Assembly (NCBI RefSeq): GCF_005298075.1 | Contig: NZ_SZZH01000001.1 | Location: 1,860,001 to 1,924,000 of the forward strand | Direction: 5' to 3' | DNA length: 64,000 nt | Origin: Nakamurella flava | GTDB taxonomy: Bacteria > Actinomycetota > Actinomycetes > Mycobacteriales > Nakamurellaceae | In this document: positions 25,795-59,022 of the stretch, piece after piece | How positions within the stretch are numbered: position 1 is the stretch's first letter | How the letters are laid out: each line of letters starts with the position of its first letter | Notes under the pieces: model-generated | What the model was told of the DNA's origin: nothing | Database searches by the model: none | The model's input: only the letters and a program-made list of their open reading frames with translations | Position numbers and translations under genes: made by a program

Positions 25795-26634
25795 TCAGGT
25801 GACGGTCAACATTTCCGTCAGGGCCGGGACCCAGTCGCGATCGGCCGCCCGCCACGGCAAAGCTTGGAGTTCGTCGGCCGCGATCCAGCGCAGTGCGGTG
25901 TGTTCCCGGGCCTGCGGATCCGGCTCGCCGTCCTCGAGGTGGGCGGCCAGCGCCCGCAGCTGGAGACCGTCGCCGAGATCGACCGGTTCGCCGACCCGGC
26001 CACCCACCACGATCCGGACCCCGAGTTCCTCGTCGATCTCGCGACGTAGTGCCTCGGCCTCGGACTCGCGGGGCTCGACCTTGCCGCCCGGCAGCTCCCA
26101 CTCGCCCGACCGGCAACGACCGACCAGCAGCTCCGCGCGGCCCGGACCGGTACGGGTGATGGCGGCGGCGACCACCAGCCGGGGGGCTCGGGCGGTGCTG
26201 TCGATCAGACCGAGCAGCAGGCGCGCGGTGGCCGTGAGCCGCCGGCGGTCGGAGCCCAGCCACAGCCGGCCCGTCGTGGCGATGGCGACGGTCACCCGGG
26301 TGCCCGCACCCGCCGGCCCGACGGACACGTCGATCCGGTGCACGGGCCCCGGACCGGTAAGGACCGTCCAGGACGGCGGACCGGACGGATGGGGCCGGTC
26401 GGCGCGCAGGACGAGCGACCGGGCCCCCGGCCGCGAGCTCCGTCCGCGTCGCCGCAACCGCATCAGGTCGCCGTCGGCCACCGGCCCGGTGACTGCGGGG
26501 TGAACGTCGACGACGGCACCCCGCGCGGTGGCCGCCCGCACCCAGAGGCTCCGCTCCCCCACCACGGTGGTCACCCGGCCCGGCGAGACGGCGAGCACCG
26601 TCCCGACCGTCACGGTGTTGCCGCGCTCAGCCAC
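25795..26634 (-). CDS. NUDIX hydrolase with a long N-terminal extension
   Basis: The C-terminal half of this 279-residue protein is a NUDIX domain. GKVEPRESEAEALRREIDEE lies in the canonical GX5EX7REUXEEXGU box, preceded by SGEWELPGG, as in MutT-like (d)NTP pyrophosphohydrolases. The first 140 residues are beta-rich, basic and unfamiliar to me. The GTG start overlaps the end of the upstream membrane glycosyltransferase gene by eight bases, so the two are translationally coupled. The substrate may be an oxidised nucleotide but is not determined. Confidence 0.85.
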   Translation of the reverse strand: MAERGNTVTVGTVLAVSPGRVTTVVGERSLWVRAATARGAVVDVHPAVTGPVADGDLMRLRRRGRSSRPGARSLVLRADRPHPSGPPSWTVLTGPGPVHRIDVSVGPAGAGTRVTVAIATTGRLWLGSDRRRLTATARLLLGLIDSTARAPRLVVAAAITRTGPGRAELLVGRCRSGEWELPGGKVEPRESEAEALRREIDEELGVRIVVGGRVGEPVDLGDGLQLRALAAHLEDGEPDPQAREHTALRWIAADELQALPWRAADRDWVPALTEMLTVT

Positions 26635-28006
26635 GCCCCGGGTCCACCGCCCGCTGCCCGCGCCCGATGGGCACCGGGCCGTCGGTGACCGGCCGACCGG
26701 CCAGCCGGGCCAGTACGGCGAGGGTGACGAGTCCCAGCAGCGGATAGACGACGCCGAGCGCCGACTGCCACAGCGGACGCGACGCCGGCTGGTCCTCGTA
26801 CTGCTGGGCGATGAGGATGCTCACGACGTAGCTGCAGGTCGCGACCGTCCAGGCGATCGCCAGCCAGCGCGCCGCGGCCGACCGCTGCCGGGGGCCGAAC
26901 AGGCACCACAGCAGCAGCGGCAGCACCCACACCCAGTGGTGCGACCACGAGATCGGCGAGATAAGCAGCGCAGTGATCTGCACCGCCAGGAACGCCGCGG
27001 TCCGGTCGCCGGCCCGCAACGACCGCCACGCGCACCACAGGCCCAGGACGAAGGCCAGGGCCGCGCACACCAGCCACACTCCGACCCGGTCCTGCCCCTG
27101 CACCCGGGACAGCGCCCCGCGCAACGACTGGTTGATGGCCGACCAGATGGGACCGGTGCGGGCCGGGTCGAACATCAGCGACGTGAAGAAGCGGACGGTC
27201 TCGGACGGCGCGGCGATCCAGCCGACCGCGACGGTGGCGACGAACGTCGCCACCGACCAGAACACCGCCCACCACCGGCGTTGCAGCAGGTAGTACAGAC
27301 CCGACAGGGCCGGCGTCAGCTTGACCCCGGCGGCCAGCCCGACGCTCAGACCACCCCAGAAGTCCCCGCGCCGGGTGGTTTTCGGGTCGATCATCGGATC
27401 GCCCGGGACGGCCGGCGGGCCGGCCGCCGCCGCGCCGGTCAGCAACAGCGCCGCGAGGAACAGATTGATCTGGCCGTAGTTGAACGTCGTCCGTACCGGC
27501 TCCAGCCAGAGCCCGAGGGCGATGACCGTGACGACGATGCCGCGCAGGTGCCTGACCGGGTGGGGGGCACCGGGACCGGCCCGGCCGAGCAGCTTGAGCG
27601 TCGAATACGCCATGAGACCGATCGCCCCGAAGGACGCCGCCTGCCACAGCACCCGCAGCACCGTCCACGGGATCCAGACCATCGGCGTGAAGATGAGCGC
27701 CGAGAACGTCGGATAGGTGAACGGCAGGTGCAGCGGCTCGGAGAAGAAGTCGTACAGGGTGCCGTCGAACAGGTGGCCGGCTCCGTCGTAGTAGACCTTG
27801 AGGTCCACCATGTTGAAGGCGTCCGACCCCAGCAGGGTGACGACCACGTGCAGGATCAGACTGACCGCCAGCAGCGCCCACGGCGCCCAGGTCGAGGCCA
27901 CCAGGGACCGCATCGCCCGGACCATCGTGCGGGGCACCGCCTTCCATCCGTCGTCCGGTGGTGGTCGGCCGGACCGGCGCGACCGGTCCTGCCCGGTGGC
28001 GGCCAT
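26627..28006 (-). CDS. Polyprenol-phosphate mannosyltransferase-like membrane protein (DUF2029/GT87)
   Basis: This integral membrane protein of about 459 residues has ten or more hydrophobic segments and the early luminal motif MVDLKVYYDGAGHLFDG, whose Asp is the usual catalytic candidate in GT87. PSHTY-like sequence LPFTYPTFSALIF and an Arg-rich cytoplasmic loop fit actinobacterial PimE-type enzymes that mannosylate lipid-linked glycans outside the membrane. The ATG at 28006 is tentative; the ATG at 27925 loses 27 polar residues and no helix. Confidence 0.82.
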   Translation of the reverse strand: MAATGQDRSRRSGRPPPDDGWKAVPRTMVRAMRSLVASTWAPWALLAVSLILHVVVTLLGSDAFNMVDLKVYYDGAGHLFDGTLYDFFSEPLHLPFTYPTFSALIFTPMVWIPWTVLRVLWQAASFGAIGLMAYSTLKLLGRAGPGAPHPVRHLRGIVVTVIALGLWLEPVRTTFNYGQINLFLAALLLTGAAAAGPPAVPGDPMIDPKTTRRGDFWGGLSVGLAAGVKLTPALSGLYYLLQRRWWAVFWSVATFVATVAVGWIAAPSETVRFFTSLMFDPARTGPIWSAINQSLRGALSRVQGQDRVGVWLVCAALAFVLGLWCAWRSLRAGDRTAAFLAVQITALLISPISWSHHWVWVLPLLLWCLFGPRQRSAAARWLAIAWTVATCSYVVSILIAQQYEDQPASRPLWQSALGVVYPLLGLVTLAVLARLAGRPVTDGPVPIGRGQRAVDPGRG

Positions 28007-30072: not shown

Positions 30073-31119
30073 TCAGCCGATGGTGCTGACGTCGATGACC
30101 GCCCGGTAGCGGACGTCGCCGTCGACCACCTTGTCGTAGTACGCGGTGGCGTCCTGGGCGTCGATGACCTCGACGGTGGCCGTCACGCCGTGCTCGGCGC
30201 AGAAGTCGAGCATCTCCTGGGTCTGCGGCAGCCCGCCGACCATGGAACCGGCGAAGGCCCGCCGCTTGGTCAGCAGCGAGAACACCCCGACCTGTTGGGG
30301 CTTCGACGGCGCCCCGACATTGACGAGCGTCCCGCCCCGGCCGAGCAGGCCCAGGTAGTCGTCCAGCGGCAGGTCGGCGGACACGGTGTTGACGATGAGG
30401 TCGAAGTGCCCGGCCAGCTCCTCGAAGACCTTCTCGTCCTCGGTGGCGTAGTAGTGGTCGGCGCCGAACTTGCGGCCGTCCTCCTCCTTGGCCGCGGTCC
30501 GGCTCAGGACGCTGACCTCGGCGCCCATGGCGGCCGCGATCTTGACGGCGACGTGCCCGAGGCCGCCCATACCGATGACGCCGACCTGCTTGCCCGGACC
30601 GGCGCCGTAGCGCTGCAGGGGGTTGTAGGTGGTGATGCCGGCGCAGAGCAGCGGGGTGGCCGCGGCCGGGTCGAGCCCGTCGGGGATGCGCAGCACGAAA
30701 TGCTCACGGACGACGACGCCCTGGCTGTAGCCGCCGTAGGTGGTGGCGCCGTCCTTGTCGTGGTCGCCGTAGGTCTGCACGACCCCCTGGTCGCAGAACT
30801 GCTCCTCGCCGTCCTTGCAGGCCTCGCACTCCAGGCAGGAGTTGACGAAGCAGCCGACGCCCACCCGGTCGCCGACGGCGAAGCGGGTGACCTCGTCGCC
30901 GATCTCCGCGACGGTGCCGACGATCTCGTGCCCGGGGACGAGGGGGAACTCCATCGGTCCCCATTCCTCGCGGACCTGGTGGATGTCGGAGTGGCAGATG
31001 CCGGCGAACTCGATGGCGATGCGGACGTCGTCCGGACGCAGATCGCGGCGCTCGATGCTGATGGTCTCGAAGGGCGCCCCGGCGGACGGAGCGGCCAGTG
31101 CGGTGACGGTGGTTGTCAT
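30073..31119 (-). CDS. Zinc-dependent NAD(P) alcohol dehydrogenase (cinnamyl-alcohol/YahK-like)
   Basis: The 348-residue medium-chain enzyme has the catalytic-zinc ligands in GICHSDIHQ and [10 protein letters not shown], the four structural-zinc cysteines in [15 protein letters not shown] and a cofactor loop [15 protein letters not shown]. These features place it with bacterial aldehyde reductases that act on aromatic and aliphatic aldehydes with NADPH. It is monocistronic on the minus strand. Its start is an ATG with no strong ribosome site. Confidence 0.93.
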
Positions 31120-31177: not shown

Positions 31178-32110
31178 TCAGGCGGTCGGCCGGTCCGGTG
31201 TCGGCAGACCGATGAGGGCCCGACGATCGGCGTGCCGGCGGATCGAGTCGGCGACGACGTCGGGATGGGCGGCGTAGCGCTCCAGATGCGCGGCTACCAC
31301 GTCGCGCAGCGGCAGACGCTCGCCCCGGAAGATCCACTCGGCCCGGTCGGGGTCCGCCGGCCAGTCGAGGGCGGCGGCCACCGCCGGTTCCAGCGGGGCC
31401 CGCCGCTCCCCCAGGTACTCGCGGTCGGGGACGGCGAAGGCGTCGGGCCCGTCGGGCAGTCCGAGCGCGGCGAGGATGCGGCGGGCCTGGGCGGCCAGCA
31501 GGGCGTTCGTCGGGTGGGTGATGGTGAACAGCGCGTCCGGTCCCAGTTCGTCGAGGAGATCGCTGACGGGGACGTCGATGTCGTGCTCGCGACGGCGCAG
31601 CTCGGCCCGGGACGCGGCGGTGGTGCGGAGTACGGCCTCGGCCGATGGCTGCGGCCACCGGTCCACCGTCTGGTCGACCGACCAGCCGCGCGCAGCCGCG
31701 TCCAGGATGCGCAGATCGTGGTAGTCGGTCATCGGCGCGGTCACCCGGTGTCCGTCGCCGTCGTGGGCGTTGACCTGGTAAGGGAACGCCCGGGTGTCGA
31801 AGGCGACCGGGAACGTGACCAGGCGCGCATCGGCGGGCAGCAGCGCGGCCAGCTGGCGGGTGCCGCACCCGGGTGTGGCGTACTCGTCACGGATGGGTTG
31901 GCTGACCAGTGCGGCCGCGTCCGCGAGCAATTCGCGGACCCGCTGCACGTCGTCGGCGTCGGCCAGGAAAACCGGTGGCACGTCCACGATCTCGCACCCC
32001 GCGGCGGCCAGCGGGGCGCGCAGCAGGTCGGCGGTCGGGGCGGCCTGGCAGTTGCCCCAGACCAGCACCGGTCGACCCCCGGACGGCAATGGCAGCGGAT
32101 GACGATCCAT
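31178..32110 (-). CDS. WcbI-like polysaccharide biosynthesis protein (putative acetyltransferase)
   Basis: This 310-residue protein opens with [16 protein letters not shown], the GNCQ block that marks WcbI-family proteins of capsule clusters, followed by [16 protein letters not shown] and a late helical region. WcbI of Burkholderia is thought to acetylate capsule sugars. No signal peptide or membrane helix is present. It has a leaderless TACGGT promoter box six bases before its ATG and diverges from a run of glycosyltransferase genes, supporting a role in glycan modification. Confidence 0.75.
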
Positions 32111-32116
32111 GAGCGG

Positions 32117-32122
32117 ACCGTA
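32117..32122 (-). promoter_or_regulatory. Leaderless -10 box TACGGT for the WcbI-like gene
   Basis: On the minus strand TACGGT is followed by six bases and then ATG at 32110. The hexamer and spacing are identical to those before the small gene at 22624. Confidence 0.5.
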
Positions 32123-32151
32123 GCCCCCCGGGTGGAGGTTTGGTCCCGCCG

Positions 32152-33264
32152 ATGCCGGGACACCTCTTCACGGTGAGCGGCTACTACATCCACCACCACG
32201 GGCATGGGCACCTGCACCGGGCCGGCACCATCGCCCGGGCGGTCGCTCGCGCCCACGGGTCGGTGGTCACCGGACTGTCGAGCCGGACCCGTCCGGCCGG
32301 CTGGTTCGGGCCGTGGGTCCACCTGGCCGATGACGCCGAGCCGGTCGCCGGACCGCAACACAATCCGTCGGCGTTCGGGCGTCTGCACTACGTCCCGACC
32401 GGTCACCCCGGGTTGCGGGCGCGGGCGGCCACCATCTCGTCCTGGATCGCCGCCACCGCTCCGCGGGTGCTGGTGGTGGATGTGTCCGTCGAGGTCGCCC
32501 TGCTCGCCCGCCTGCACGGCGTTCCGGTCGTCTCCATGGGAATGCCAGGGTTCCGGCATGACGAGGCCCACGAGATCGGTTACGGCGTCAGCGATCTGAT
32601 CGTCGGACCCTGGCCGGCCGCGGCCAGCCGCTGGTTGCACGGTGGCACCCCGGAGGATCGCCTCGTCGCGGTCGGCGCGATCAGCCGGTTCGCCCCGGCC
32701 GACGGCCCGGTCGACGTCCGACCGGGCAGCGTCGTGGTGCTCAACGGCACCGGAGCCGCGGCGTCCGATCCGACGGCGTTGTCCGCCGAACTCGTCGCCG
32801 CTGCCGACGCCGTCACCCCGGACTGGTCGCTGGAGTACCTGGCCGGGGCGGGCCACTGGGTCGAGGATCCTTGGTCCCGGCTGAGCACCGCCGAGGTGGT
32901 GGTGAGCCACTGCGGACAGAACGCGGTGGCCGAGATCGCGGCCAGCCGCCGGCCGGCGGTGCTGGTGCCGTCCGCCCGTCCCTTCGACGAACAGTGGGCG
33001 ACCGCACGGGCCCTGCGGGAGCTCGACCTGCCCGCCGTCGTGCTGGATGCGTGGCCGGCTGCCGAGGACTGGGCGCAGGTGCTGACCCGGGCTGCGCGGC
33101 TGGACGGGGCGGACTGGGTCCGCTGGAACGACGGCCAGGGCGCCGACCGCGCCGCGGCGCTCATCGGTGCGGTGTCCAGCCCCGCCGGGTCGACCACGAC
33201 GCCCGGCGGGAGGTGGTCGGTCGTCGACGGAGACGGCCACGACCACGACGCCCGGATCGCATGA
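32152..33264 (+). CDS. Glycosyltransferase, MurG/GT28-like GT-B fold
   Basis: This 370-residue protein begins GHLFTVSGYYIHHHGHGHLH, resembling the N-terminal glycine/histidine loop of GT28-type enzymes. Its C-terminal half has the nucleotide-sugar motif VVSHCGQNAVAEIAASRRP and AVLVPSARPFDEQW. No membrane segment is seen. The ATG at 32152 is 13 bases after GGAGG; a TTG at 32140 is possible. It starts a four-gene plus-strand operon with overlapping stops and starts. Confidence 0.82.
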   Translation: MPGHLFTVSGYYIHHHGHGHLHRAGTIARAVARAHGSVVTGLSSRTRPAGWFGPWVHLADDAEPVAGPQHNPSAFGRLHYVPTGHPGLRARAATISSWIAATAPRVLVVDVSVEVALLARLHGVPVVSMGMPGFRHDEAHEIGYGVSDLIVGPWPAAASRWLHGGTPEDRLVAVGAISRFAPADGPVDVRPGSVVVLNGTGAAASDPTALSAELVAAADAVTPDWSLEYLAGAGHWVEDPWSRLSTAEVVVSHCGQNAVAEIAASRRPAVLVPSARPFDEQWATARALRELDLPAVVLDAWPAAEDWAQVLTRAARLDGADWVRWNDGQGADRAAALIGAVSSPAGSTTTPGGRWSVVDGDGHDHDARIA

Positions 33265-34124
33265 CGACGCTGCGGACGGCCGTCATCACCACGGCCCACG
33301 GTCGACACGAACATCTGCACCGCCAGCAGCAGGTCCTGCAGGCCCTGCCCGACCCGGCCGACATCCGGGTGGTGGTCGCCCTCGACGATCCCGGGATCGC
33401 GGACGTCCTGCAGTCCGCCGGGGCCGGTCCGTCGACGACCGTGGTGGACGGACCACGCGGCGACCACGGCCTGGCCGTCGGGGCCGGTCGGAACGCCGGG
33501 GCCGCCGCCGCCCGGACCGCGGGCGCCGAACTCCTGGTCTTCCTCGACGTCGACTGCCTGCCGGGGCCGGGCACCCTGGCCGCCTATCGGCGATCCGCCG
33601 CCGGCGCCCGCCGCGACGATCTGCTCGCCGGCGTCGTGGCCTACCTGCCGCCACCCCCACCGGAGGGCTACGACCTCGACCGGCTGGCCGATCATCCCGG
33701 CCATCCCGGCCGACCGATCCCGGCGCCCGGCGCCGAGATCCGGGGCGACGACCCCCGGTTGTTCTGGTCGCTCTCGTTCGCCGTGCGACCCGAGATCTGG
33801 GACCGGGTCGGTGGATTCGACGAGGACTTCGAGGGATACGGCGCCGAGGACACCGATTTCGCGTTCCGGGCCGACCGGGTCGGTGTCGGACTGACCTGGG
33901 TGGGCGGGGCCGAGGCCTACCACCAGTGGCACCCCAGCGGGTCGCCGCCGGTGCGTCACCTCGACGACATCCTGCGCAACGGTGAGCTTTTCGCCCGGCG
34001 ATGGGGATTCTGGCCGATGGAGGGCTGGTTGCGACAATTCGCCGAGATGGGCCTCGTCCGGCCGACCACGGCGGTCGGCGGACCGGCCGATGGCACTGCG
34101 ATCCATGGATGGGAGCGAACATGA
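33261..34124 (+). CDS. Family 2 glycosyltransferase (GT-A)
   Basis: This 287-residue enzyme opens with RTAVITTAHGRHEHLHRQQQ and has VAYLP and LLVFLDVDCLPGPG as the metal-binding DXD region near residues 92-105. GGFDEDFEGYGAEDTDFAFR is the acceptor-side motif of galactosyltransferase-like GT2 proteins. Its ATG shares ATGA with the previous stop and its own stop overlaps the next start, so the three glycosyltransferases are tightly co-translated. Confidence 0.9.
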   Translation: MTTLRTAVITTAHGRHEHLHRQQQVLQALPDPADIRVVVALDDPGIADVLQSAGAGPSTTVVDGPRGDHGLAVGAGRNAGAAAARTAGAELLVFLDVDCLPGPGTLAAYRRSAAGARRDDLLAGVVAYLPPPPPEGYDLDRLADHPGHPGRPIPAPGAEIRGDDPRLFWSLSFAVRPEIWDRVGGFDEDFEGYGAEDTDFAFRADRVGVGLTWVGGAEAYHQWHPSGSPPVRHLDDILRNGELFARRWGFWPMEGWLRQFAEMGLVRPTTAVGGPADGTAIHGWERT

Positions 34125-35341
34125 TGTGGCCGACGGCGGGATTCATCGATCAGCCGGGTCACCGGCCCATCGCGCGATCGATGGCGACCGTCCCCCCGTT
34201 ACGCATCGCGATCCTGGGCCATTTCCGCCACGCCATCGCCGAACCGTTCCAGGGTGGTCTGGAGGCGCACACCGCCCTGCTGGCCGACGAACTGACCCGC
34301 CGCGGTCATGACGTGACCCTGCTCGCCAAGGAGGGCAGCGTCACCGCCGCCCGGCTGCGGCCGATCGTCCCGGCCGGTTTTCACTACGGCCCGCTGCCGG
34401 GCGAGACCATCGACCGGTCGGAGATGATGGCTGACGCCGCCCTGCTCGAGGCCATCCATGAGGTCGAGGACGAGGTCGACGTCGTCCTGAACAATTCGCT
34501 GTCCAAGGTCCCGTACCTGCACCTGGCCGATCGGCCGATGCTGACGGCGCTGCACACCCCCGCCTCGCTGGAACGGGTCGTCGAGGTCATCGCGGCCACC
34601 GACTGGCGACCGGGGCACCGGCACGTCTGGGCCGGGGTGTCGCGGACCACCAGCCGCGACTGGGCCCGGTGGCTGCCCGACGTCCGCTGCATCACCAACG
34701 GCATCGACCTGGCCCGCTGGGCCCCGCGGCCGGACGTCACCGCCCGGCCCCAGCACGCGGTCTGGTCCGGTCGTATCACTCCGGAGAAGGGCCTGGTACT
34801 GGCCATCGAGGCAGCCCAGTTGGCCGGGTGGAGCCTGTCGATCAGCGGTCCGGTCGCCGACCCGGTGTATTTCGCCGAACAGATCGCGCCGCGGCTGGAC
34901 GAGAAGATCCGGTACGTCGGCCATCTGCGGCACACCGAACTGCCCGCCTTCCTGCAGTCGGGTTCGGTGTACCTCTTCACGCCCATGTGGCCGGAGCCGT
35001 TCGGGTTGGCGCTCGTCGAGGCCCTGGCCGGCGGCACCCCGGCCGCGGTCCTGCCCCAGGGCGCGGTCGCCGAAATCGTCGGCCGCCGAGGGGGTGTCAT
35101 CGCCGCCGGGTGCACCGCGGTCGATCTCGCCGCCGCCCTGCCGCGGGCCGCGGAACTGGACCGCCGGGCGGTGGCCGCGTCCGTGGCCGGCTTCTCCAAG
35201 ACCGCCATGGTCTCGGCCTACGAGCAGGTCCTGGCCGAGATCGCCACTGTCGACAGTGATCTGATACCGGTTCCGGTCTCCGCGCCGTCCCGGTCCCACG
35301 AGCGCACCACCGACCGGGAGAAGGAGTCCCCATGCCGATGA
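34121..35341 (+). CDS. Family 4 glycosyltransferase (GT-B)
   Basis: The 406-residue enzyme has an N-terminal acceptor domain (GGLEAHTALLADELTRRGHDV) and a C-terminal nucleotide-sugar domain with AVWSGRITPEKGLVLAIEAA and the EX7E motif PEPFGLALVEALAGGTP. The first roughly 27 residues before LRIAILGHF may be dispensable. The start used, ATGATG at 34121, follows GGGAG and overlaps the preceding stop. Confidence 0.92.
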   Translation: MMWPTAGFIDQPGHRPIARSMATVPPLRIAILGHFRHAIAEPFQGGLEAHTALLADELTRRGHDVTLLAKEGSVTAARLRPIVPAGFHYGPLPGETIDRSEMMADAALLEAIHEVEDEVDVVLNNSLSKVPYLHLADRPMLTALHTPASLERVVEVIAATDWRPGHRHVWAGVSRTTSRDWARWLPDVRCITNGIDLARWAPRPDVTARPQHAVWSGRITPEKGLVLAIEAAQLAGWSLSISGPVADPVYFAEQIAPRLDEKIRYVGHLRHTELPAFLQSGSVYLFTPMWPEPFGLALVEALAGGTPAAVLPQGAVAEIVGRRGGVIAAGCTAVDLAAALPRAAELDRRAVAASVAGFSKTAMVSAYEQVLAEIATVDSDLIPVPVSAPSRSHERTTDREKESPCR

Positions 35342-35874
35342 GTTCCGCCGAGGGCAAAGACTGGACGCGGGAGCGCATCCAGCAGCTGTCCGAGGACCCG
35401 ATCACCGTCCTGGACATCGGTCCCGGAGTGGGCACCTACGCCAAGCTGCTGGCCGGGCCGAACCTGGCGCACATCACCGGTATCGAGATCTGGGAGCCCT
35501 ACGTCCACACCTACCGGCTCAAGGAGTACTACGACGAGGTCATCGTCGGGGACGCCCGGGAAGTGGAGTTCCCCACCGTCGACGTCGTCGTCCTCGGGGA
35601 CGTCGCCGAGCACATGAGCGAACCCGACGCGCTCCGGCTGTGGGAACGGGCCGCGGCGGCGGCCCGCCGCGCGGTCTACCTGTCGATCCCGATCGTGCAC
35701 TACCCGCAGGGGCACATCGAGGGCAACCCGCACGAGCACCACGTGGTCGACGACTGGGACCACGACAGGGTTCTCGCGACCTTCCCGGGGATCGGCGAGT
35801 CGTGGCGGGGCACCGAGGTCGGCGTCTACGAGCGGCGGACCGACGGTGGCGGGACGGTCGAATCCGCCGCCTGA
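35332..35874 (+). CDS. Small SAM-dependent methyltransferase-like protein
   Basis: This 180-residue Rossmann protein has motif I VLDIGPGVGTYAKLL, then ITGIEIWEPYV (motif II acidic residue) and VDVVVLGDVAEHM (motif IV region). It ends with short His-rich and acidic stretches. It overlaps the previous gene by ten bases, with AAGGAG eight bases before its ATG. Its place behind three glycosyltransferases suggests methylation of a sugar or lipid in the same glycan. Confidence 0.8.
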   Translation: MPMSSAEGKDWTRERIQQLSEDPITVLDIGPGVGTYAKLLAGPNLAHITGIEIWEPYVHTYRLKEYYDEVIVGDAREVEFPTVDVVVLGDVAEHMSEPDALRLWERAAAAARRAVYLSIPIVHYPQGHIEGNPHEHHVVDDWDHDRVLATFPGIGESWRGTEVGVYERRTDGGGTVESAA

Positions 35875-35885
35875 CCGGGCCCTGA

Positions 35886-35910
35886 CGGCCGGGCGGTCAC
35901 CGCCCGGCCG
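35886..35910. terminator. Bidirectional hairpin whose loop is a stop codon
   Basis: Arms 35886-35896 and 35900-35910 are perfectly complementary over 11 bp. The three-base loop TCA (35897-35899) is the stop codon of the minus-strand glycosyltransferase. It lies between convergent genes. Confidence 0.65.
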
Positions 35911-38344
35911 GTTCCTGGCCGACGTACTTCAGTTCGTGCGCCAGATCGACCGGACGCGTCGGCCGGGGATCGGGACGGTCGCGGCCGCCGAACAGCCGGG
36001 CGGTCACCAGCTCCACGTCCAGGGCCAGCCGGTCGGCCCATCGTCGGCTCCGGGCCTGGGCCCGGGCCGGCACCAGTCGGCCGGTCGGCAGCTGCAGCGG
36101 ACCCTCACGGTACGCGCGGTCGAGGAGATCCATGACCCCGGTGATCCGCGCCGGGGCGTGCAGAGTCAGCACCGCCAGCGCACTGGCCGCGACGTCCGCC
36201 GGCACCGGGCCGGCCTGGACGCGCGGATCGCCCAGCCGACCGGCTGTCTCGACGGCGGCCTGGATCGATGCCTCGTCCATGGCGACCAGCCAGACCCCGA
36301 CGTCGGCGTCCCCGGCGAACGCCGCCCGGGCGGTGGCCAGCACCTCGACCGGGTCGCTGAACGCCAGCTCCACGACCACCGCCGGCCGCGCCCACTGGCC
36401 GCCGCCCCGGGCCTCCGGATCGGGCAGACGCTCGGCCAGGACGAGGGTCTCGGCGTTCTTCGCCGCCCGGCGGTCCGGCTCCGGACGGTCGGCCCAGTCG
36501 GGCCCGTCGTGCCAGGCGACCGCGTCCCGCACGTGGGCCAGGACGGCACCGGCGGTGTAGGCCCGGTGGGTGAGCTCCCAGTCCTCGCCGCCGTAGCCGC
36601 GGAACGACTCGTCGAAGCCGCCGATCGCACGGAACAGGTCCCGCGGCACCGCCAGCACCGCCGAGATGACGGCGCGGTAGCTGCGGCGGTCGACGTGCCG
36701 CAGGTCGGCGCTGGCGGCATACAGATCGAGCAGCCACTGCGGCTCGGTGAGCTCACGAGGAGCCGGACCGAGGCCCAGCAACCAGTCGGTGATGGCGGCG
36801 GGGGTCCAGCCGTCCAGGTCGGCGTGCCGGCGGCGGCCGACGGTGAGCGCGTCCGGGCAGAGAGCGGGCAGCCGGGTCAGCCGGGTCAGATAGTCCGGTT
36901 CGGGAACGGTGTCACCGTCGAGGAACACCAGGATCTCGCCGTCCGCGGCAGCGGCGCCCCGGTTGCGGGCGGCCGCGGCCCGGAACCCGTCCCGGTCCTG
37001 GCGCACCACCCGCCCGGAGATGCCGGAGCCGTCCAGCACATCCAGGGAGGGCGGTCGGTCGCTGCCGTCGTCGGCCACCACCACCTGCACCCGCGTCCGC
37101 GGATGGGTGGTGACGGTCAATGCCGCCAGCACCTGGTCCAGCCCCGCCTGGGCCTGGAAGTACGGGACGACCACACTGACCGTGGGCGGCTCGACCGGCT
37201 CGACTCCGGCCAGCAGGTCCCACCGATTGCCCGGTAGCGCGGTCACCGACGCTCCCCCGGTCGTCGTCACCGTGACCGGCGCAGGTGCCGCACACCCGGC
37301 GAAGTGCCGGTGGTAGAACGCCGTGACCTCGACCGTCGACGGCGGGGGGACGGCGTCGGCCGGCAGCCGCGTCCGGGCGGGATCGGCCAGGGCGGCGGCG
37401 ATCTCGGCCCGCAACGCCCCCGGCCGATCGGCGTCGTAGAGGCGGACGCAGCCGGGGGTGCGCTGTTCCAGCTCGCGGGCGTACGGCGAGTCGGGGACCA
37501 ACGGTCGCCGGCCGTGCGCGTTCCAGGTGCTGATGGACGCGGAAGCGGCGACCCGCCGATTCGGGGCCACCGGCACCGCAGCCGCGGCCAGGGCGGCGGC
37601 GAGGTCGCGGTCGGGGACGAAACCGGTGACCTGCAGGCGGTGGCCGGCCGCGGCCGCCCGCTCACCCAGGGCGGCTGGCAGGTCCTCGTGCCCGGCGGGC
37701 GGCCGGCCGAGCGCGACCAGATCGACCCCGGGTGGCAGTTCGTCGATGGTGTGCTCGTAGCCGCGGTCGGGGAAGACGAAGCCGAGCACGGCGACCGCCC
37801 CCGCCAGCCCGTCGGGCGGGGCGGCCCCGTCCGCCGGGTCGCCCGCCCGCTCCATGGGCAGCGGGATGCAGCGGATGCTGCGGGGGCCCGGCTGGACGGG
37901 TTCCTCGGTGCCGTCGGGGGCGCCGGCCAGCAGAGTGTCGAGCAGCGCGAGTTCGCGCCACGAGTTCACGACCACGCCGTCGGCCCGCCGGACCACCTCC
38001 CGGTAGGCCGACCGGCGCCGACGGTCCCGGCCGGGGTCACCGGTGCCGTCGGGCAGATCGTGCAGCGTCACCGACAGGGCGACGCCGCGTTCCCGCCACG
38101 GGTCGACCAGGGCGGCGAAGGCGGCGGCACTGTTGGGTGCGAGATCGCCGAACAGGCGGTCGGTGAACGGCAGGTGCACGAGCGTGCCCGTCTCCGGGCG
38201 CAGGTCGGCGATGTCGGCCGCGGTCGTCCCGCGTGCGAGCCGGTGACCGCAGGCCCGGGCGACCTGGACGGCGTGGCGGACGACTCCGTGCTCGTCCGGT
38301 CCGACGACGACGTGCGTGGCATCGGTCCAGGCGGTCGGGTTCAC
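35897..38344 (-). CDS. Two-domain glycosyltransferase: GT-B-like N-half fused to family 2 C-half
   Basis: This 815-residue protein starts at GTG 38344, which overlaps the stop of the upstream gene. Residues 1-350 resemble a GT-B enzyme lacking the classic EX7E (VTGFVPDRDLAAALAAAAVP near 239-258). Residues 387-600 are a GT2 domain with VSVVVPYFQAQ, VVVADDGSD, FLDGDTVPEPDY (DGD near 476-478) and GGFDESFRGYGGEDWELTHR. About 200 further residues hold no clear family. Fusing the two folds suggests sequential sugar additions by one protein. Confidence 0.82.
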   Translation of the reverse strand: MNPTAWTDATHVVVGPDEHGVVRHAVQVARACGHRLARGTTAADIADLRPETGTLVHLPFTDRLFGDLAPNSAAAFAALVDPWRERGVALSVTLHDLPDGTGDPGRDRRRRSAYREVVRRADGVVVNSWRELALLDTLLAGAPDGTEEPVQPGPRSIRCIPLPMERAGDPADGAAPPDGLAGAVAVLGFVFPDRGYEHTIDELPPGVDLVALGRPPAGHEDLPAALGERAAAAGHRLQVTGFVPDRDLAAALAAAAVPVAPNRRVAASASISTWNAHGRRPLVPDSPYARELEQRTPGCVRLYDADRPGALRAEIAAALADPARTRLPADAVPPPSTVEVTAFYHRHFAGCAAPAPVTVTTTGGASVTALPGNRWDLLAGVEPVEPPTVSVVVPYFQAQAGLDQVLAALTVTTHPRTRVQVVVADDGSDRPPSLDVLDGSGISGRVVRQDRDGFRAAAARNRGAAAADGEILVFLDGDTVPEPDYLTRLTRLPALCPDALTVGRRRHADLDGWTPAAITDWLLGLGPAPRELTEPQWLLDLYAASADLRHVDRRSYRAVISAVLAVPRDLFRAIGGFDESFRGYGGEDWELTHRAYTAGAVLAHVRDAVAWHDGPDWADRPEPDRRAAKNAETLVLAERLPDPEARGGGQWARPAVVVELAFSDPVEVLATARAAFAGDADVGVWLVAMDEASIQAAVETAGRLGDPRVQAGPVPADVAASALAVLTLHAPARITGVMDLLDRAYREGPLQLPTGRLVPARAQARSRRWADRLALDVELVTARLFGGRDRPDPRPTRPVDLAHELKYVGQEPAGR

Positions 38345-39414
38345 CGGGCCGCTCCGACGAGCCGCGCGTAGAGCTCCGCGTGCTGGCTTCGGATGGTCGC
38401 GGCCTCGGCCAGCCGGGCGCCGCGGTCGGCCGGGGCGGGCGGCGGCTCGGACGCCGCCCGGGCGACCGCCGTCGACAGGGACGCCGGATCGAACCCGGCG
38501 CGCTCGTCGTTGACGAAGAGGTGCACACGGTCCCACTGGTCGCGGTAGTGACCGCAGCTGGGGGCGACGACCGCGGTGCCGAGATCCCGGGCCAGCTCCA
38601 ACCACCCGGAGTGAGTGCCCCACCGGTGCGGCAGCACGGTGACGTGGGCCCGTCGCAGGTACCGCTCCAGTTCCAGGTCGTCGAACCGGTCGTGGACCGC
38701 GATCTCCAGGCCCGGACCGGGCTGCAGGCCGGCGAGCCGGGGATCGTCGACGACGTCCGGATGCATGTCGACCCGCAACCGGCCGCCCCCGGCGACCGCA
38801 CCGGCAGCGGCCGCCGTCACCAGTTCCACCGGGTCGATGAGATTGCGCCGCAACGACTTCAGATGCAGGGCCACCAGACCGGGCTCGGTGTCGACGTCCG
38901 CCGTGCGGTCGGCGTCGACCAGGCTGGGGTGCGCGATGACCTGGGCGCGGCGCCCCCACCGGGAAGCGATCTCGTCGGCCGCGCCGTCGGTGAGGGTGAC
39001 GACGGCGGCGGCCCGGGCGAACAGCGCGTCCAGCACGTCGGCGTGGGGGGCCGGGTCGACGTGATGCGGGTTGCGCAGATCGTGCGCGGTGAGGACCAGC
39101 GGGACGCCCGCCGTGTCCAGGGCGTCGGCCCAGCGCTCGGCCGCGGCGCGGTCGAGATGGTCGAATCCGAAGTGCAGGTGGACCAGGTCGGCGCTCCCGG
39201 CCCACTGCGGGACCGACGCCGCTTCCAGGTACGGGTCCGGTTCCCACCCGCGCACCCGGTCGATGGCGACCGGACGCACCCCGTCCGGGCGGACGGTCTC
39301 GACGTAGGGGTGCCGGGCGGGCACGGTGACGACCCGCAGGCCGGCGGTGGGCGCGACGGGCCCCACGGTCGGTCCGGCGGCGGTCGAATCGGCGGCGGTG
39401 GTGCGGGACGGCAT
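38341..39414 (-). CDS. Glycosyltransferase (GT4-like)
   Basis: This 357-residue GT-B-like protein has ADLVHLHFGFDHLD and LVLTAHDLRNPHH in the acceptor half and TVLPHRWGTHSGWLELARDL, AVVAPSCGHYRDQ in the donor half. The ATG at 39414 gives a normal length; upstream in-frame sequence is an overlap of the MprF-like gene in another frame. It is co-translated with the fused glycosyltransferase through a GTGA overlap. Confidence 0.85.
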   Translation of the reverse strand: MPSRTTAADSTAAGPTVGPVAPTAGLRVVTVPARHPYVETVRPDGVRPVAIDRVRGWEPDPYLEAASVPQWAGSADLVHLHFGFDHLDRAAAERWADALDTAGVPLVLTAHDLRNPHHVDPAPHADVLDALFARAAAVVTLTDGAADEIASRWGRRAQVIAHPSLVDADRTADVDTEPGLVALHLKSLRRNLIDPVELVTAAAAGAVAGGGRLRVDMHPDVVDDPRLAGLQPGPGLEIAVHDRFDDLELERYLRRAHVTVLPHRWGTHSGWLELARDLGTAVVAPSCGHYRDQWDRVHLFVNDERAGFDPASLSTAVARAASEPPPAPADRGARLAEAATIRSQHAELYARLVGAAR

Positions 39415-39443
39415 GCTGGGGCTGTACCCCGCCGCCCGGTCGG

Positions 39444-41633
39444 TCAGTGCTTGACCACGGCCAGCATGTCGCGCAGGGACGCGGTCGGCAGGTACGCCCG
39501 GGTGATGGCGATGCCGATGCGCGGCAGGTCGCCCTCGTCCCGGAACGTCATCAGCATCGGCGACAGGCGTGGCTGGAACTTGGCCTTGAACGCGTGCAGC
39601 GAACGGAACCCGTAGACCGGTTCCAGGGTCTCGCCCAGGGTGCCGAGGAACTTCTCGATGGCCGAGCCGTGTTCCTCCTCGCCGTCCGAGCGGGCCAGCG
39701 GCGCCCCGGACAGCGACACGAACTGCGCACCCTGGGCCTTGAAATGCAGGCAGGACGAGGCGATGAGGAACTCCATCGCATTGCGGAAACCGCCGTCGGC
39801 CCGGCGCATCAGATCCAGGGTCCACCCGGCGATGTCGCCGCCTTCGGCGTACACCGGCATCCAGGACGTGACGCCGTGCAGCTTGCCGTCGGCGTCGACG
39901 GCCAGGCCGACCTTGACCTCCGGGTCGAGGGCCTCGGTGACCCCGCCGAGGGTGAAGCCCATCTCGGGCAGTTCCTTGTCGCCCAGCCACTGCTGCGAGA
40001 GGTGTTCGACCTGGCGCACCATCGCCCACGGCTCGTCGGACAGGGTGACCATGCGGAAGGTGATGCCCTCCTTGGCCCCCTTGTTGAGCGCGGTGCGGAT
40101 GTCCTGCCACTTCTTGCCCTTGAACTCCAGGGGCGGCAGGTCGATGAGGTTGTCCTCGGCCACCTGGACGTGCTGCCAGCCCAGCCCGTCGGTGACGTCG
40201 GAGGTCAGGCGCGAGCAGGAGAAGAAGTACGGGATGAGCGACGCCTGCTCGCACATCGTCAGGAACTCGCCGATCGCGGGCGCCGTAGAACCGGGCGGTC
40301 CGATGGGGTCACCGAGGACGACAGCCACCCCGGCGTGTTTGCGGAACGCCAGGTACGACTGTCCGTCGGCGGTGATGAAGTGCCGGTTCTCCGGCCACGT
40401 CGTCATCCACGACAGGGGGCTGCCGCCCCACTGCCGCAGCAGTTGCCTGGCCATCTCGGGGTGCGAGGTGCCGCTGGCCTGCCGACGGGTCGATTTCCGG
40501 GGGACCTTGAACGCCGATCGGGCGGCGATGAGCATCGCCAGGTAGCCGCCGAAGATGACCGCCGCGGCGATGAGTTCCGGAATGCCGTCGACCTGCGCGT
40601 CCGGGTCGTCCAGCGCTCCGACGATCTCCAGGAAGAGCAACAGCGCGAAGACGGCGGCGACGGCGAGCAGCGGGATGGATGCGACCACCACCGCGACCCA
40701 CCAGGCCCACCGGTAGCCGCGGCGCAGGCCGTTGGCGATGAGCAGCGCGATGACCAGGTACGGCAGCAGGTAGTACCAACTCCAGTCGTCGTCGTCGGTC
40801 ATGCCGAACGGCGTCAGGTGCGACGGGAGGAAGTTGGCCAGCACGTTGGCGACGGCCAGCACGATCAAGGCGACCATGGCGATCAGCCGGATCTCGTGAC
40901 GGGTGGGCAGCGCCCGTGCCTTGAGCGCACGCGGTCCGGCGAGCCGGCTGGAGAACGGCAGACTCAGGGCGACGGCGACGAAGTGTTCGGCGTCGGCCAT
41001 CTGCCCGACGAAGATGATCGAGAAGACCACGTAGGTCCAGATGACGATGCGCAGCCGTAGCCGCCACGGCGGGCGCACGGTGGCCGAGGCGATGCCGAGC
41101 ACGGCGAGCATGCCGGCCGAGAACCCGACGTCCGTCTCGGTGGCCCGGGTGGCCGCCCATTCCCACTGGGAATTGCGGAAGACGTAGAACACCAACGCGG
41201 TGACCAGGACCGCGACGATCTGGTAACCGAAGCACAGCAGTGCGGTCCGCCGGGTGCCGAGCTTCCATTCCGCGAAGCCGGTGAGGACGGCGAAGAAACC
41301 GACGACGAAGATGTAGTAGATCGGGTTCAGGGCGAAGAAGCAGCCCCACAGCAGGGACAGCCAGTTGCCGTCCTGCAACGCCGGCAGCCCGTAGCCGACC
41401 GTCGGGAAGAACGATTTCTCGTCGACCGGCGTCCACAGAGTGCCGAACCCGATGGCCAGGGCCAGCGTGATGACGACGTAGGTGGCCGTGAACGGCACCC
41501 GTCGAGCCAGTCTGGCCAGCGTCGCCCCGGTCCGGGCCAGCGCACCGGGTGGGGCGTCGTCGGCTGGCGTCTGCGGTGCAGGCGGCTCCGACGTCGTTCC
41601 CGGGGTCGTCCCAGGCGTCACAGTGGTCTCCAC
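39444..41633 (-). CDS. MprF-like aminoacyl-phosphatidylglycerol synthase with membrane domain
   Basis: The 729-residue protein has a Pro/Thr-rich cytoplasmic head, then about ten membrane helices, then a DUF2156 catalytic domain (from about residue 400) with YLAFRKHAGVAVVLGDPIGP, FKGKKWQDIRTALNKG and LDLMRRADGGFRNAMEFLI. Such enzymes move lysine or alanine from tRNA to phosphatidylglycerol and lower surface charge. There is no LysRS-like domain, unlike mycobacterial LysX. The GTG at 41633 has a leaderless TAGCGT box. Confidence 0.88.
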   Translation of the reverse strand: METTVTPGTTPGTTSEPPAPQTPADDAPPGALARTGATLARLARRVPFTATYVVITLALAIGFGTLWTPVDEKSFFPTVGYGLPALQDGNWLSLLWGCFFALNPIYYIFVVGFFAVLTGFAEWKLGTRRTALLCFGYQIVAVLVTALVFYVFRNSQWEWAATRATETDVGFSAGMLAVLGIASATVRPPWRLRLRIVIWTYVVFSIIFVGQMADAEHFVAVALSLPFSSRLAGPRALKARALPTRHEIRLIAMVALIVLAVANVLANFLPSHLTPFGMTDDDDWSWYYLLPYLVIALLIANGLRRGYRWAWWVAVVVASIPLLAVAAVFALLLFLEIVGALDDPDAQVDGIPELIAAAVIFGGYLAMLIAARSAFKVPRKSTRRQASGTSHPEMARQLLRQWGGSPLSWMTTWPENRHFITADGQSYLAFRKHAGVAVVLGDPIGPPGSTAPAIGEFLTMCEQASLIPYFFSCSRLTSDVTDGLGWQHVQVAEDNLIDLPPLEFKGKKWQDIRTALNKGAKEGITFRMVTLSDEPWAMVRQVEHLSQQWLGDKELPEMGFTLGGVTEALDPEVKVGLAVDADGKLHGVTSWMPVYAEGGDIAGWTLDLMRRADGGFRNAMEFLIASSCLHFKAQGAQFVSLSGAPLARSDGEEEHGSAIEKFLGTLGETLEPVYGFRSLHAFKAKFQPRLSPMLMTFRDEGDLPRIGIAITRAYLPTASLRDMLAVVKH

Positions 41634-41685: not shown

Positions 41686-42630
41686 TCACCGTCTTGGGAC
41701 ACCCGACCGGGGCCGTCGGGGCCGGGTGGTGATCCGGGCGTCCGTGAGGACCAGGGGTGCCCAGCTGGGGGCCGGCCGCCGTCCGTGGCCGGGATCCACC
41801 CCGATGATCCGCCGGCCACCGATCTCGGTGGTGACGTGCCGCCGCACCGGGTCCTCCACGGTGACGATGCCCGGTCGGTCGGTCAGGTCGCTGCGGTACT
41901 GCCGTCCGGTGGTGAAGTCGACGGTACTGCTGTGGCCGTGGACCTGATGGAAAGGGGCCGGAGCGGAGCTGGCGGCCCACGACGGCAGCAGCTCGTCGGG
42001 CGCCGAGGCCCAGAAGGGACCGGCGGACGGGTCGACCTCCCCGGTGAGCATCACCCCGGGCCGGAAGAGCGACGAGTGGCGCAAACCCCGCACCAGTCCG
42101 TTGAGGGCGGCAGCTGCCGCGGTGGCGTCGGCGGGCAGCCCCAGCAGGTGCCGCCAGAATCCTTCTGTCAAGCCGGCGTGGGTGATGAGCCAGTCGCCGT
42201 CCGGTGTGGCGACGGCGGCCGCGACGCCCATGCGCCCGGAGTGCCACCAGCCGTAGATCGTTTCGATGTCGTCCTCGTCGAGGCGCTCGGGCCAGTGGAA
42301 CATCGGTGGGGCCAGGTACTGGGCCTCGTGGTTGCCGGCCAACTGGATCCACTGCTCGGGTTGGGCGAGCTGGATGCGGTCGACCAGGGCGATGGCGCCC
42401 GGGCTGTCCGGCCCCCGGTGGATGAGGTCGCCGACCTGGATGACGGTGAGGTCGTCGGGGAGCCGCCCGGTCCGTTCGTCGAATCCCAGATCGATGAGGG
42501 CATGCCGCAGTTCGTCCGCGTGGCCGCCCACATCCCCGATGACCGCCACGCGGCCGGTCGATCCAGCGACGGCCTCCGGCTCCGCGGAGCGGAGCGCCGG
42601 GGGCGCTGGTCGCGGTGGGTACGCGGTCAT
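41686..42630 (-). CDS. Metallophosphoesterase (PPP/Calcineurin-like)
   Basis: This 314-residue protein has the ordered metal motifs of the family: VIGDVGGHADEL, QVGDLIHRGPDS, LAGNHEAQYL, ITHAG and VHGHSS. These bind two metals and hydrolyse phosphoesters such as phosphoproteins or dinucleoside polyphosphates. The ATG at 42630 is preferred over an upstream basic start. It lies 52 bp upstream of the MprF-like gene in the same direction. Confidence 0.88.
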   Translation of the reverse strand: MTAYPPRPAPPALRSAEPEAVAGSTGRVAVIGDVGGHADELRHALIDLGFDERTGRLPDDLTVIQVGDLIHRGPDSPGAIALVDRIQLAQPEQWIQLAGNHEAQYLAPPMFHWPERLDEDDIETIYGWWHSGRMGVAAAVATPDGDWLITHAGLTEGFWRHLLGLPADATAAAAALNGLVRGLRHSSLFRPGVMLTGEVDPSAGPFWASAPDELLPSWAASSAPAPFHQVHGHSSTVDFTTGRQYRSDLTDRPGIVTVEDPVRRHVTTEIGGRRIIGVDPGHGRRPAPSWAPLVLTDARITTRPRRPRSGVPRR

Positions 42631-42714: not shown

Positions 42715-43047
42715 TCAGGGAGGCGGGAGCGACCGCGCATGGTCGAGACCGACGCGGACGTACCGTTGCAGCGCCGTTGGGTCGGCGATGGCGCTGGGGG
42801 CGACGTCCATCCAGCCGACCAGCTCGCGGCCACGCATCACCATGGGCTCCATTCCGGGCTCGGCCGCGTACTTCTCGGTGTCCTCCGGGGGAACCCGCAG
42901 CAGCAGTCCGCCCCGGCCACTCACCGCCATGGCCATGCGGCCGTGGACGAGGAACGCCAGCCCGCCGAACATCTTCTTCTCCGTGATCGCGGGCTCGCCC
43001 TCGAGGAGCTCCCGGATGCGCTCGGCCAGTTCCAGGTCGTAGGCCAT
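42715..43047 (-). CDS. TfoX N-terminal domain protein
   Basis: This 110-residue protein has ITEKKMFGGLAFLVHGRMAM and LLLRVPPEDTEKYAAEPG, the standard TfoX/Sxy N-domain pattern. In enteric bacteria such proteins help induce competence. Stand-alone domains in actinobacteria have no proven role. The ATG at 43047 is chosen by family length, and a GATACT box seven bases upstream could give a leaderless transcript. Confidence 0.88.
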   Translation of the reverse strand: MAYDLELAERIRELLEGEPAITEKKMFGGLAFLVHGRMAMAVSGRGGLLLRVPPEDTEKYAAEPGMEPMVMRGRELVGWMDVAPSAIADPTALQRYVRVGLDHARSLPPP

Positions 43048-43123
43048 GAACTGCAGTATCGCCCCGGACACCAGCATTCGGCCGGGATGGCGGGGCCGCG
43101 GTGACCGGTTCCGCCGGTCCTTC

Positions 43124-57996: not shown

Positions 57997-58048
57997 CCAT
58001 GGTTCTTCCTTGTCGTCATCCTTTCCACCACGGATACTGGAACCATGG
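57997..58048. promoter_or_regulatory. Candidate VapB operator: CCATGGTTC inverted repeat with GATACT box
   Basis: CCATGGTTC (57997-58005) pairs perfectly with GAACCATGG (58040-58048), which includes the vapB start codon. GATACT (58033-58038) lies six bases before the ATG, so antitoxin binding could block a leaderless promoter. Confidence 0.4.
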
Positions 58049-58299
58049 CACTGAACATCAAGGATCCGGAGACCGATCGGTTGGCCCGGGAGCTGGCTGC
58101 TGCCGCCGGCGAATCCATCACCACCGCGACCAAGCGGGCGTTGGAAGAACGGCTCGAACGGGTCCGAGCGCGGGCACGGGCGGAGTCGCTACCGGTGGAT
58201 CTCAGTGACGTCATCGCCCGGGGGCGAGCCCGGGCAGTCCTTGATGGCCGACCCGAGGCAGAACTGCTGGGCTACGACGACAGCGGCATCCCGGCATGA
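58045..58299 (+). CDS. vapB: VapB-type antitoxin
   Basis: This 84-residue protein begins MALNIKDPETDRLARELAAA, the PSK_trans_fac (Rv0623-like) antitoxin start, with a ribbon-helix-helix DNA-binding head and a basic helix followed by an acidic C-terminal tail that would wrap the toxin. Its stop overlaps the toxin ATG by four bases, the usual antitoxin-first order. Autoregulation through the inverted repeat at its start is plausible. Confidence 0.9.
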   Translation: MALNIKDPETDRLARELAAAAGESITTATKRALEERLERVRARARAESLPVDLSDVIARGRARAVLDGRPEAELLGYDDSGIPA

Positions 58300-58700
58300 C
58301 CCAGGTCGTCGTTGACACCTCGGCCGTCGTGGCCGTCGTGCTGGGTGAACCGGACGCCGAGCAGTTCGCCGCTGTTCTGGTCCACCATCGCGGCGAATTG
58401 TTGATCAGCGCCACGACCCGCGTCGAGCTGGGCATCGTGGTCGAGGCACGCCATGGCCCGGAGGGAACCCGGGAACTCGAGGCGCTGTTGACGAGGCTGT
58501 CCGTCACGGTCGAGCCGTTCGACGCAGTCCAGTCGACAGTGGCGCTCGCCGCATGGCGACGGTTCGGGAAGGGACGCCACCCGGCTGGCCTCAACCTCGG
58601 CGACTGCTACAGCTACGCACTCGCCAAGTCCCGCGGCGCACCGCTGCTGTTCAAGGGTGACGACTTCTCACAGACGGATGTGGACGCCGTGCCGGGCTAA
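58296..58700 (+). CDS. vapC: VapC-type PIN-domain toxin
   Basis: The 134-residue PIN nuclease has the first catalytic Asp in VVVDTSAVVAVVLGEPDAE, Glu in TRVELGIVVEA, and the C-terminal pair LNLGDCYSYALAKSRGAPLLFKGDDF (split over 26 residues) that completes the metal site. Such toxins cleave tRNA or rRNA when the antitoxin is lost. All four acidic positions appear intact, so it is probably active. Confidence 0.92.
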   Translation: MTQVVVDTSAVVAVVLGEPDAEQFAAVLVHHRGELLISATTRVELGIVVEARHGPEGTRELEALLTRLSVTVEPFDAVQSTVALAAWRRFGKGRHPAGLNLGDCYSYALAKSRGAPLLFKGDDFSQTDVDAVPG

Positions 58701-59004: not shown

Positions 59005-59022
59005 TGATGTCACCGACTGGAT

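Follow-up and report, generated by a model that had tools for sequence, protein, structure and literature searches.

The window, the whole 64,000-nucleotide stretch of Nakamurella flava DNA analysed here, holds a glycan module at 31178–39414 that comprises a WcbI protein, five glycosyltransferase (GT) genes and a methyltransferase. Four of the GT genes (GT4b, GT4a, GT28 and GT2a) recur as a core operon across Actinomycetota. On balance, we favour the view that the module's product is a single short, defined oligosaccharide or glycoconjugate, assembled stepwise in the cytosol, and that its core serves the stress response in many relatives.

Gene content and limits of the module

One GT gene is a two-domain fusion, so the five GT genes encode six GT units (Table 1). 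The initial annotation had set the right limit at 41633. All the genes it listed are there (WcbI, five GT genes, a methyltransferase and an MprF-like gene), but the MprF-like gene was present in 0 of 103 other cluster loci and lies outside the conserved unit. Its picture of tightly overlapping operons converging at 35.9 kb agrees with the overlaps at 33261/33264, 35332/35341 and 38341/38344 and with the facing gene ends at 35874 and 35897; the WcbI gene stands apart, divergent from the plus-strand operon.

Table 1. Positions of the module genes and of the neighbouring MprF-like gene in the window.
Feature	Positions	Strand	Support
WcbI-family protein, putative CoA-dependent acyl (acetyl) transferase	31178..32110	-	PF18588 E=1.9e-53
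GT28/GT1-like glycosyltransferase, core gene	32152..33264	+	PF04101 E=2.9e-5
GT2a, GT2/galactosyltransferase-like glycosyltransferase, core gene	33261..34124	+	PF10111 + PF02709
GT4a, GT4 glycosyltransferase, core gene	34181..35341	+	PF00534 E=6.8e-15
SAM-dependent class I methyltransferase	35332..35874	+	PF08241 E=4.3e-9
Fused GT: N-terminal GT4-like unit (GTN) + C-terminal GT2 unit (GTC)	35897..38344	-	PF00535 E=6.2e-16
GT4b, divergent GT-B glycosyltransferase, core gene	38341..39414	-	No Pfam match; confident GT-B model
MprF-like membrane protein with LPG_synthase_C domain, outside module	39444..41633	-	PF09924 E=7.8e-73

Polymer machinery is lacking locally, as the initial annotation had also stated: no polymerase, flippase, glycan exporter or sugar-nucleotide gene was found by Pfam among 20 genes (22807–46410). 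Predicted membrane segments are likewise missing: none of the module proteins has a strongly hydrophobic stretch. An ABC transporter of amino-acid type is among the 20 scanned genes, as is a membrane GT87 transferase.

The 103 cluster loci (11 + 79 + 13) range from 3.8 to 21 kb, and a few genomes are apparently represented twice among them (L145/L062, L147/L120, L042/L072 and L038/L056). Three window genes were rejected on the basis of this set: an alcohol dehydrogenase (30073–31119; 1/103) and a phosphoesterase (41686–42630; 0/103) as module members, and the GT87 transferase (26627–27925; 0/103) as a missing partner. No other window gene recurs beside the cluster in the 103 loci above the level of the control stretches (L158–L177), which were hand-placed and non-random.

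Conservation across Actinomycetota

The GT set was found in 11 of 60 relatives, giving 12 carriers (with the window genome) and 49 non-carriers among 61 genomes. It stays together in all 11 carrier loci, with shuffled gene orders and differing fusions: GTN-GTC in the window, L035 and L046, GT2a-GT4b in L035, and GT28-GT2a in L036. GTN and GTC are separate genes in 10 of the 11 relatives, adjacent in 7; a joint alignment of the fused GT with its split relatives was unusable. Among 79 wider loci (80 minus L093, which has no gene calls), 56 contain all four core genes, within four consecutive genes in 52. Since the 103 loci were located by way of GT4b or the fused GT, the counts for these two genes follow by construction.

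The initial annotation had suggested checking whether relatives conserve the gene set, and had named scattered, unlinked orthologues as a sign of chance adjacency. The set recurs far beyond chance adjacency, and because the GT genes stay linked in the 11 carrier loci and most wider loci, scattering is not what we see. Protein distances of the four core members, compared by mirror-tree in 50 loci, showed mixed agreement (Spearman 0.06–0.69); therefore, the core genes were not simply inherited as a single block.

Neighbour families in relatives were annotated by exemplars only, so that the survey of partners is not exhaustive. Members of an ABC ATPase family are found close to the core in 11 loci, and epimerase-family matches (PF01370, either short-chain reductases or sugar epimerases) account for 5 of 150 nearest genes and are absent among the 25 families listed for the control.

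Individual enzymes

The GT28-like protein was modelled by AlphaFold with a pLDDT of 89.1, and its best PDB folds are macrolide GTs, with MurG also among them; a PDB profile search returned weak MurG, YjiC and EspG2 matches only, from which no product can be named. GT4a matches 7fg9 and, at E=7e-55, tetrahydrobiopterin glucosyltransferases; 7fg9 scores higher but is named just “glycosyl transferase”. In the fused GT, PF00535 covers residues 390–507 and a weak PF13439 match residues 72–131, and the profile search with GTN gave weak Tll1590 and HepE matches that likewise name no product. GT4b, with no Pfam match and an empty PDB profile search at E 0.01, has a model with a pLDDT of 90.6 whose best folds include GlgM, MshA and SenB; 545 related stretches occur in the genome contig collection.

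The WcbI protein scores 181.6 bits against the Pfam profile (cut-off 29.2) and is the sole copy found in the window genome. Its Cys21 aligns with Cys14 of the Burkholderia pseudomallei prototype (PDB 4bqn/4bqo), which binds CoA according to PMC4104973; the two share family membership by Pfam, this cysteine and an HP(T/G)N-like motif. The prototype comes from the machinery for a capsule polymer, whereas the window cluster is actinobacterial, with a four-GT core and no adjacent polymerase. The same source reports that acetyltransferase activity of the prototype was not detected in assays. Nine of the ten WcbI proteins from cluster loci retain the CoA-binding-type cysteine; in the remaining one, the called gene starts downstream of that position.

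Both putative decorating genes track the GT set in the 61 genomes. WcbI was found in 10/12 carriers versus 0/49 non-carriers (p=7e-10), and the methyltransferase, at E<=1e-20, in 7/12 versus 0/49 (p=2e-6), two of the seven being unlinked to the cluster. The methyltransferase is 66–77% identical in eight other cluster loci.

Mycofactocin carries an oligosaccharide with a methyl cap, a logic similar to that of the window module. The GT2 units and the methyltransferase show weak NCBIfam matches to its glycosylation system (MftF, MftM), yet membership was rejected, as the scores (43.8 and 85.5 of 280, and 16.7 of 200) fall far under the equivalog cut-offs.

Association with stress regulation

Statistically, ANTAR regulators near the core and sigma-F/B-type motifs upstream of it are more frequent than for control genes; the motif result replicated weakly. 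ANTAR genes make up 12 of 150 nearest genes (sampled from 181 near genes at 50 loci) versus at most 1 of 150 control genes (sampled from 306), the latter an upper bound because ANTAR was absent among the 25 listed families, a list that runs down to families of a single member.

The motif follows the consensus for M. smegmatis SigF and Streptomyces SigB homologues, as given in PMC4694148 and PMC8346170. A first look covered every GT4b gene whose upstream neighbour was usable, 75 in all: the relaxed pattern G[GT]TT...GGG[TA]A preceded 17/75 versus 43/689 control genes (p=2e-5), and GTTT-N13-18-GGGTA 6/75 versus 19/689 (p=0.03). In a set of 54 loci, the relaxed pattern was found upstream of GT4b in 20/54 versus 43/581 (p=1e-8), and the stricter GTTT-N14-18-GGGTA in 8/54 versus 19/581. 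This set arose by dropping 15 loci (mostly with GT4b close behind another gene) and 7 of the remaining 61 without a usable anchor; dropping the 15 raised the motif rate, since none of them had a site in the first look. With all 22 omitted loci scored as misses, the figure is 20/76 (p=4e-6). The relaxed pattern belonged to the three tested at the outset, and related loci are non-independent. Replication on 28 new loci gave 6 sites, three of them identical to sites of the first set; without those, 3/25 remained (p=0.29).

On Rhodococcus plasmids, all four core families are contiguous in 6/6 annotated records, with a SigB/SigF/SigG gene within 12 kb in 5/6; the motif was absent in both plasmid loci tested. 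Core operons of some relatives are candidate members of sigma-B/F general-stress regulons, with GTTT-N14-19-GGGTA-like sites upstream and SigB/F genes nearby on plasmids. The window copy differs in having no such site (0/15 window genes examined have one upstream). No ANTAR or sigma factor was found among 10 flanking window genes scanned.

Proposed product and alternatives

A short decorated product is still the best reading of this locus, and the initial view of a coherent glycan cluster holds: GT genes are linked in carriers, with no adjacent polymerase or flippase. As we infer it, sugars would be transferred stepwise in the cytosol by about one enzyme per linkage, with GT4b, GT4a, GT28 and GT2a building the portion shared by many Actinomycetota. 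In the extended form, the two further GT units, fused in the window genome, would lengthen or branch the chain, WcbI would add a CoA-derived acyl group to the glycan and the methyltransferase a methyl cap. The core would act within the general-stress (sigma-B/F) response in many relatives, and the window copy may also serve under stress. Against this reading, the recurrent ABC ATPase and the epimerase-family matches leave room for export and sugar-nucleotide partners.

The module could instead use a lipid carrier to build a surface glycan, be it a wall decoration, a capsule repeat or the head group of a glycolipid, with export and perhaps polymerisation encoded elsewhere and WcbI acting as in capsule synthesis. 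The WcbI prototype is a capsule protein (PMC4104973), the GT2 units resemble the exopolysaccharide transferases EpsD and HfsG in NCBIfam with scores under cut-off, and MurG is among the GT28 fold matches. However, the lack of polymerase and flippase among the 20 scanned window genes, the lack of any other recurrent window gene beside the cluster and the lack of strongly hydrophobic segments in module proteins make this possibility rather unlikely.

Less probable still, the GTs might glycosylate a small stress-protective metabolite, such as a pterin or carotenoid, into a methylated, acylated oligoglycoside. Tetrahydrobiopterin glucosyltransferases (5zer, 5ze7) are the best specifically named solved relatives of GT4a, to which they appear homologous by sequence over nearly the full GT4 length; the GT28 model is nearest to macrolide transferases, and a CrtO-like oxidoreductase family, under the CrtO cut-off, lies near the core in 7 loci. 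Yet the acceptor cannot be read from GT4/GT-B similarity, the neighbour families of core loci include no constant metabolite-forming gene, and four to six transferases are many for such a compound, GT4a being one of six GT units in the window.

The initial annotation had also read WcbI and the lipid aminoacylation gene as coordinated surface-charge control, but joint tuning of surface charge by WcbI, the GTs, the methyltransferase and the MprF-like enzyme is very improbable: the MprF-like gene adjoins GT4b on the same strand with a 29-base gap, but it sits beside the cluster in the window genome only, in carriers G002, G004, G012 and G013 the full-length orthologue is encoded on a different contig or no closer than 90 kb, and within the genus full-length MprF occurs in 5/8 carriers versus 5/9 non-carriers (p=1). 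Linkage and co-occurrence rule it out as a module member, and it looks like a chance neighbour.

Significance

A literature search, whose coverage left out most subscription papers, found no published description of the operon. We tentatively suggest that the short, defined product favoured here is an undescribed general-stress oligosaccharide of Actinomycetota, encoded by a portable four-GT operon that is carried both by chromosomes and by plasmid-borne stress islands containing a SigB/F-type sigma factor, and extended in some lineages (Nakamurella, Klenkia, Kineosporia and others) by two GT units and, in part, an acyl and methyl cap. Shared by many soil actinobacteria, a four-GT operon without adjacent polymer genes and often near stress regulators suggests that a short glycan is widespread. 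Core-only and extended lineages are predicted to make products of two sizes. The gene set is defined enough for deletion, with desiccation, osmotic, oxidative and UV stress as phenotypes, and it provides a setting for studying WcbI, a proposed acyltransferase that comes here with few, conserved candidate partners.

Gene content and limits of the module

Gene starts were set from translation and overlaps, and family assignments were backed by Pfam and NCBIfam, which bear out the gene parts named in the initial annotation. GT4b, GT4a, GT28, GT2a, GTN and GTC are labels coined in the present analysis.

Genes of the 30-43 kb region and a nearby membrane transferase
Feature	Position	Strand	Remarks
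GT87 membrane transferase	26627-27925		PF09594, E=2.6e-48; 3.3 kb from module
Alcohol dehydrogenase	30073-31119	-	
WcbI	31178-32110	-	
GT28-like glycosyltransferase	32152-33264	+	
GT2a	33261-34124	+	
GT4a	34181-35341	+	
Methyltransferase	35332-35874	+	
Two-domain transferase (GTN + GTC)	35897-38344	-	
GT4b	38341-39414	-	no Pfam family; AlphaFold model
MprF-like	39444-41633	-	
Phosphoesterase	41686-42630	-	
TfoX_N-domain protein	42715-43077		upstream of phosphoesterase

We conclude that the module is real and that its right-hand limit lies before MprF. The boundary first drawn at 41633 is wrong: the MprF-like gene occurs in none of 103 cluster loci from other records, and its orthologues in relatives lie at other genome positions. 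Window genes outside 31178-39414 were each found in 0 to 15 of these loci, with no clear excess of flanking genes over 20 control stretches (highest for an ABC ATPase, 15/103 versus 4/20). With MprF outside the conserved module, the earlier proposal of coordinated surface-charge control is not supported. The GT87 gene is absent from all 103 loci and is therefore ruled out as a partner of the module. The TfoX_N-domain gene was also found in 0/103. Elsewhere in the window, positions 58000-61000 have few called genes and a G+C of 0.57-0.61 versus about 0.71, possibly a recent insertion.

Conservation of the module among relatives

Strong homologues of the fused transferase (E <1e-55) were present in 11 of 60 relatives, as a single protein in one (locus L035) and as two separate genes in ten, adjacent in seven. 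Up to 20 kb was fetched around each. The gene set proved conserved. In all 11 stretches, GT4a, GT2a, GT4b, GTN and GTC are confined to some 11 kb, and GT28 is present in ten, the eleventh contig being cut and its genome having a GT28 on another contig. WcbI was found in eight stretches (a ninth genome has it on a separate small contig) and the methyltransferase in four. The order and strand of module genes differ between relatives, as do fusions: GTN-GTC in the window, L035 and L046, GT2a-GT4b in L035, and GT28-GT2a in L036.

Across 61 genomes, the window genome included, WcbI occurred in ten, all among the 12 carriers of the fused-transferase family (Fisher p=7e-10), and the methyltransferase (E<=1e-20) in seven, all carriers (p=2e-6), two of which (G004 and G012) have it far from the cluster. 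GT28 (E<=1e-20) was found in 14 genomes, namely all 12 carriers plus G026 and G032.

A four-transferase core across Actinomycetota

A GT4b profile run against genome_contigs found 545 related stretches, of which the best 80 were retained. All of these 80 bear actinobacterial titles except L056 (1-8542; Candidatus Melainabacteria), which is probably mis-binned because its length equals that of G020:C72, a contig from a genome of the window's order. Among the 79 of these best 80 loci with gene calls, all four core families (GT4b, GT4a, GT28, GT2a) were present in 56, and inside four consecutive genes in 52; examples come from Streptomyces, Nocardioides, Gordonia, Rhodococcus, Nocardia, Arthrobacter and Pseudonocardia. 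As an extension of the core, 18 of the 79 have GTN or GTC; the methyltransferase occurs in four and WcbI in three. The distribution is patchy: at E<=1e-30, GT4b turned up in 14 of 396 genomes sampled from the phylum, and at E<=1e-60 in 53 of 394 sampled from the class. Of those 14 genomes, five fall outside the class, four of them with all four core families around GT4b. No account of the four-transferase operon was found in the open-access literature searched; it is conserved across Actinomycetota and apparently undescribed.

Two genomes outside the class (L152, L153) have two GT4b copies each beside the core. Three Kineosporia loci (L054, L055, L058) combine the methyltransferase, GT4b and GTC, with GTN called in two; GT4a, GT28 and GT2a are absent within about 10 kb.

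Stress-related genes and promoter motif

Several families recur no more than about 10 kb from the core, as judged from one annotated exemplar per family: SDR reductases, GAF- or PAS-ANTAR regulators, a SigF-type sigma factor, HPII catalase, Hsp20, DUF7218 and spore-photoproduct-lyase-like proteins. An ABC ATPase family recurs in 11 loci. As a guard against picking, a Pfam scan compared 150 of the nearest genes with 150 drawn from 20 control stretches in genomes that bear GT4b; ANTAR was the commonest family beside the core (12/150 versus at most 1/150; p=0.0014). GT4b was also found on seven Rhodococcus plasmids. In the six annotated ones, several closely related, the four core families are contiguous (the fourth labelled hypothetical in one), a SigB/SigF/SigG sigma factor lies within 12 kb in five, and an ANTAR protein occurs in three. 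Rhodococcus plasmid islands (L179, L180, L206-L209) carry the operon and, in most, a SigB/F sigma factor, along with genes for an ATP-binding anti-sigma-like protein, BrkB, the xanthine dehydrogenase family and CinA.

The M. smegmatis sigma-F/B consensus is given as GTTT-N14-19-GGGTA in PMC4694148, and looser site forms are described for Streptomyces SigB homologues in PMC8346170. A relaxed motif matching these stood upstream of GT4b in 20/54 loci versus 43/581 other genes (p=1e-8), with 5/54 on the reverse strand; a stricter motif gave 8/54 versus 19/581 (p=0.001), and the count with no locus left out was 17/75 versus 43/689. In a second locus set the motif occurred in 6/28 versus 1/28 on the reverse strand, and at no wrong spacing, but three of the six sites repeat the first set, and with these repeats removed (3/25, not significant) the replication fails. 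Such a site was absent from the 15 window genes examined and from two plasmid copies tested, and a scan of ten flanking window genes turned up no stress regulator. Evidence for the stress link thus comes from the core family in other genomes rather than from this one.

Protein features and proposed product

The AlphaFold model of GT4b (mean pLDDT 90.6) has GT-B enzymes as matches, among them GlgM, MshA and SenB, a selenosugar synthase; that of the GT28-like protein (pLDDT 89.1) lies nearest to macrolide transferases, with MurG among other matches. The usual GT4 motif is E-x7-E. The GT4b family has an invariant block, GTHSGWxE, which stands where the first glutamate is expected, leaving GT4b without it.

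The glycan reading of the initial annotation is supported. As it had noted, polymerase, flippase and sugar-nucleotide genes are absent, here from the 20 window genes scanned. In none of the module proteins does the mean hydropathy of a 19-residue stretch exceed 1.9, a value that is passed in MprF, the permease and the VIT protein. Taken with a ratio of roughly one enzyme to each linkage, and with four transferases in the core version against six in the extended one, these absences suggest a short, fixed oligosaccharide, which would be assembled in the cytosol using common nucleotide sugars. A less likely rival product is a pterin glycoside, suggested by the homology of GT4a to tetrahydrobiopterin glucosyltransferases.

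On the oligosaccharide, the methyltransferase of the module would add a methyl cap. An acyl cap added by WcbI is plausible, because the window protein retains the cysteine corresponding to the one that bonds CoA in the prototype; PMC4104973, which describes that bond, reports no detected acetyltransferase activity for the prototype. The main interest lies beyond the coordinates of this cluster, in the four-transferase operon.
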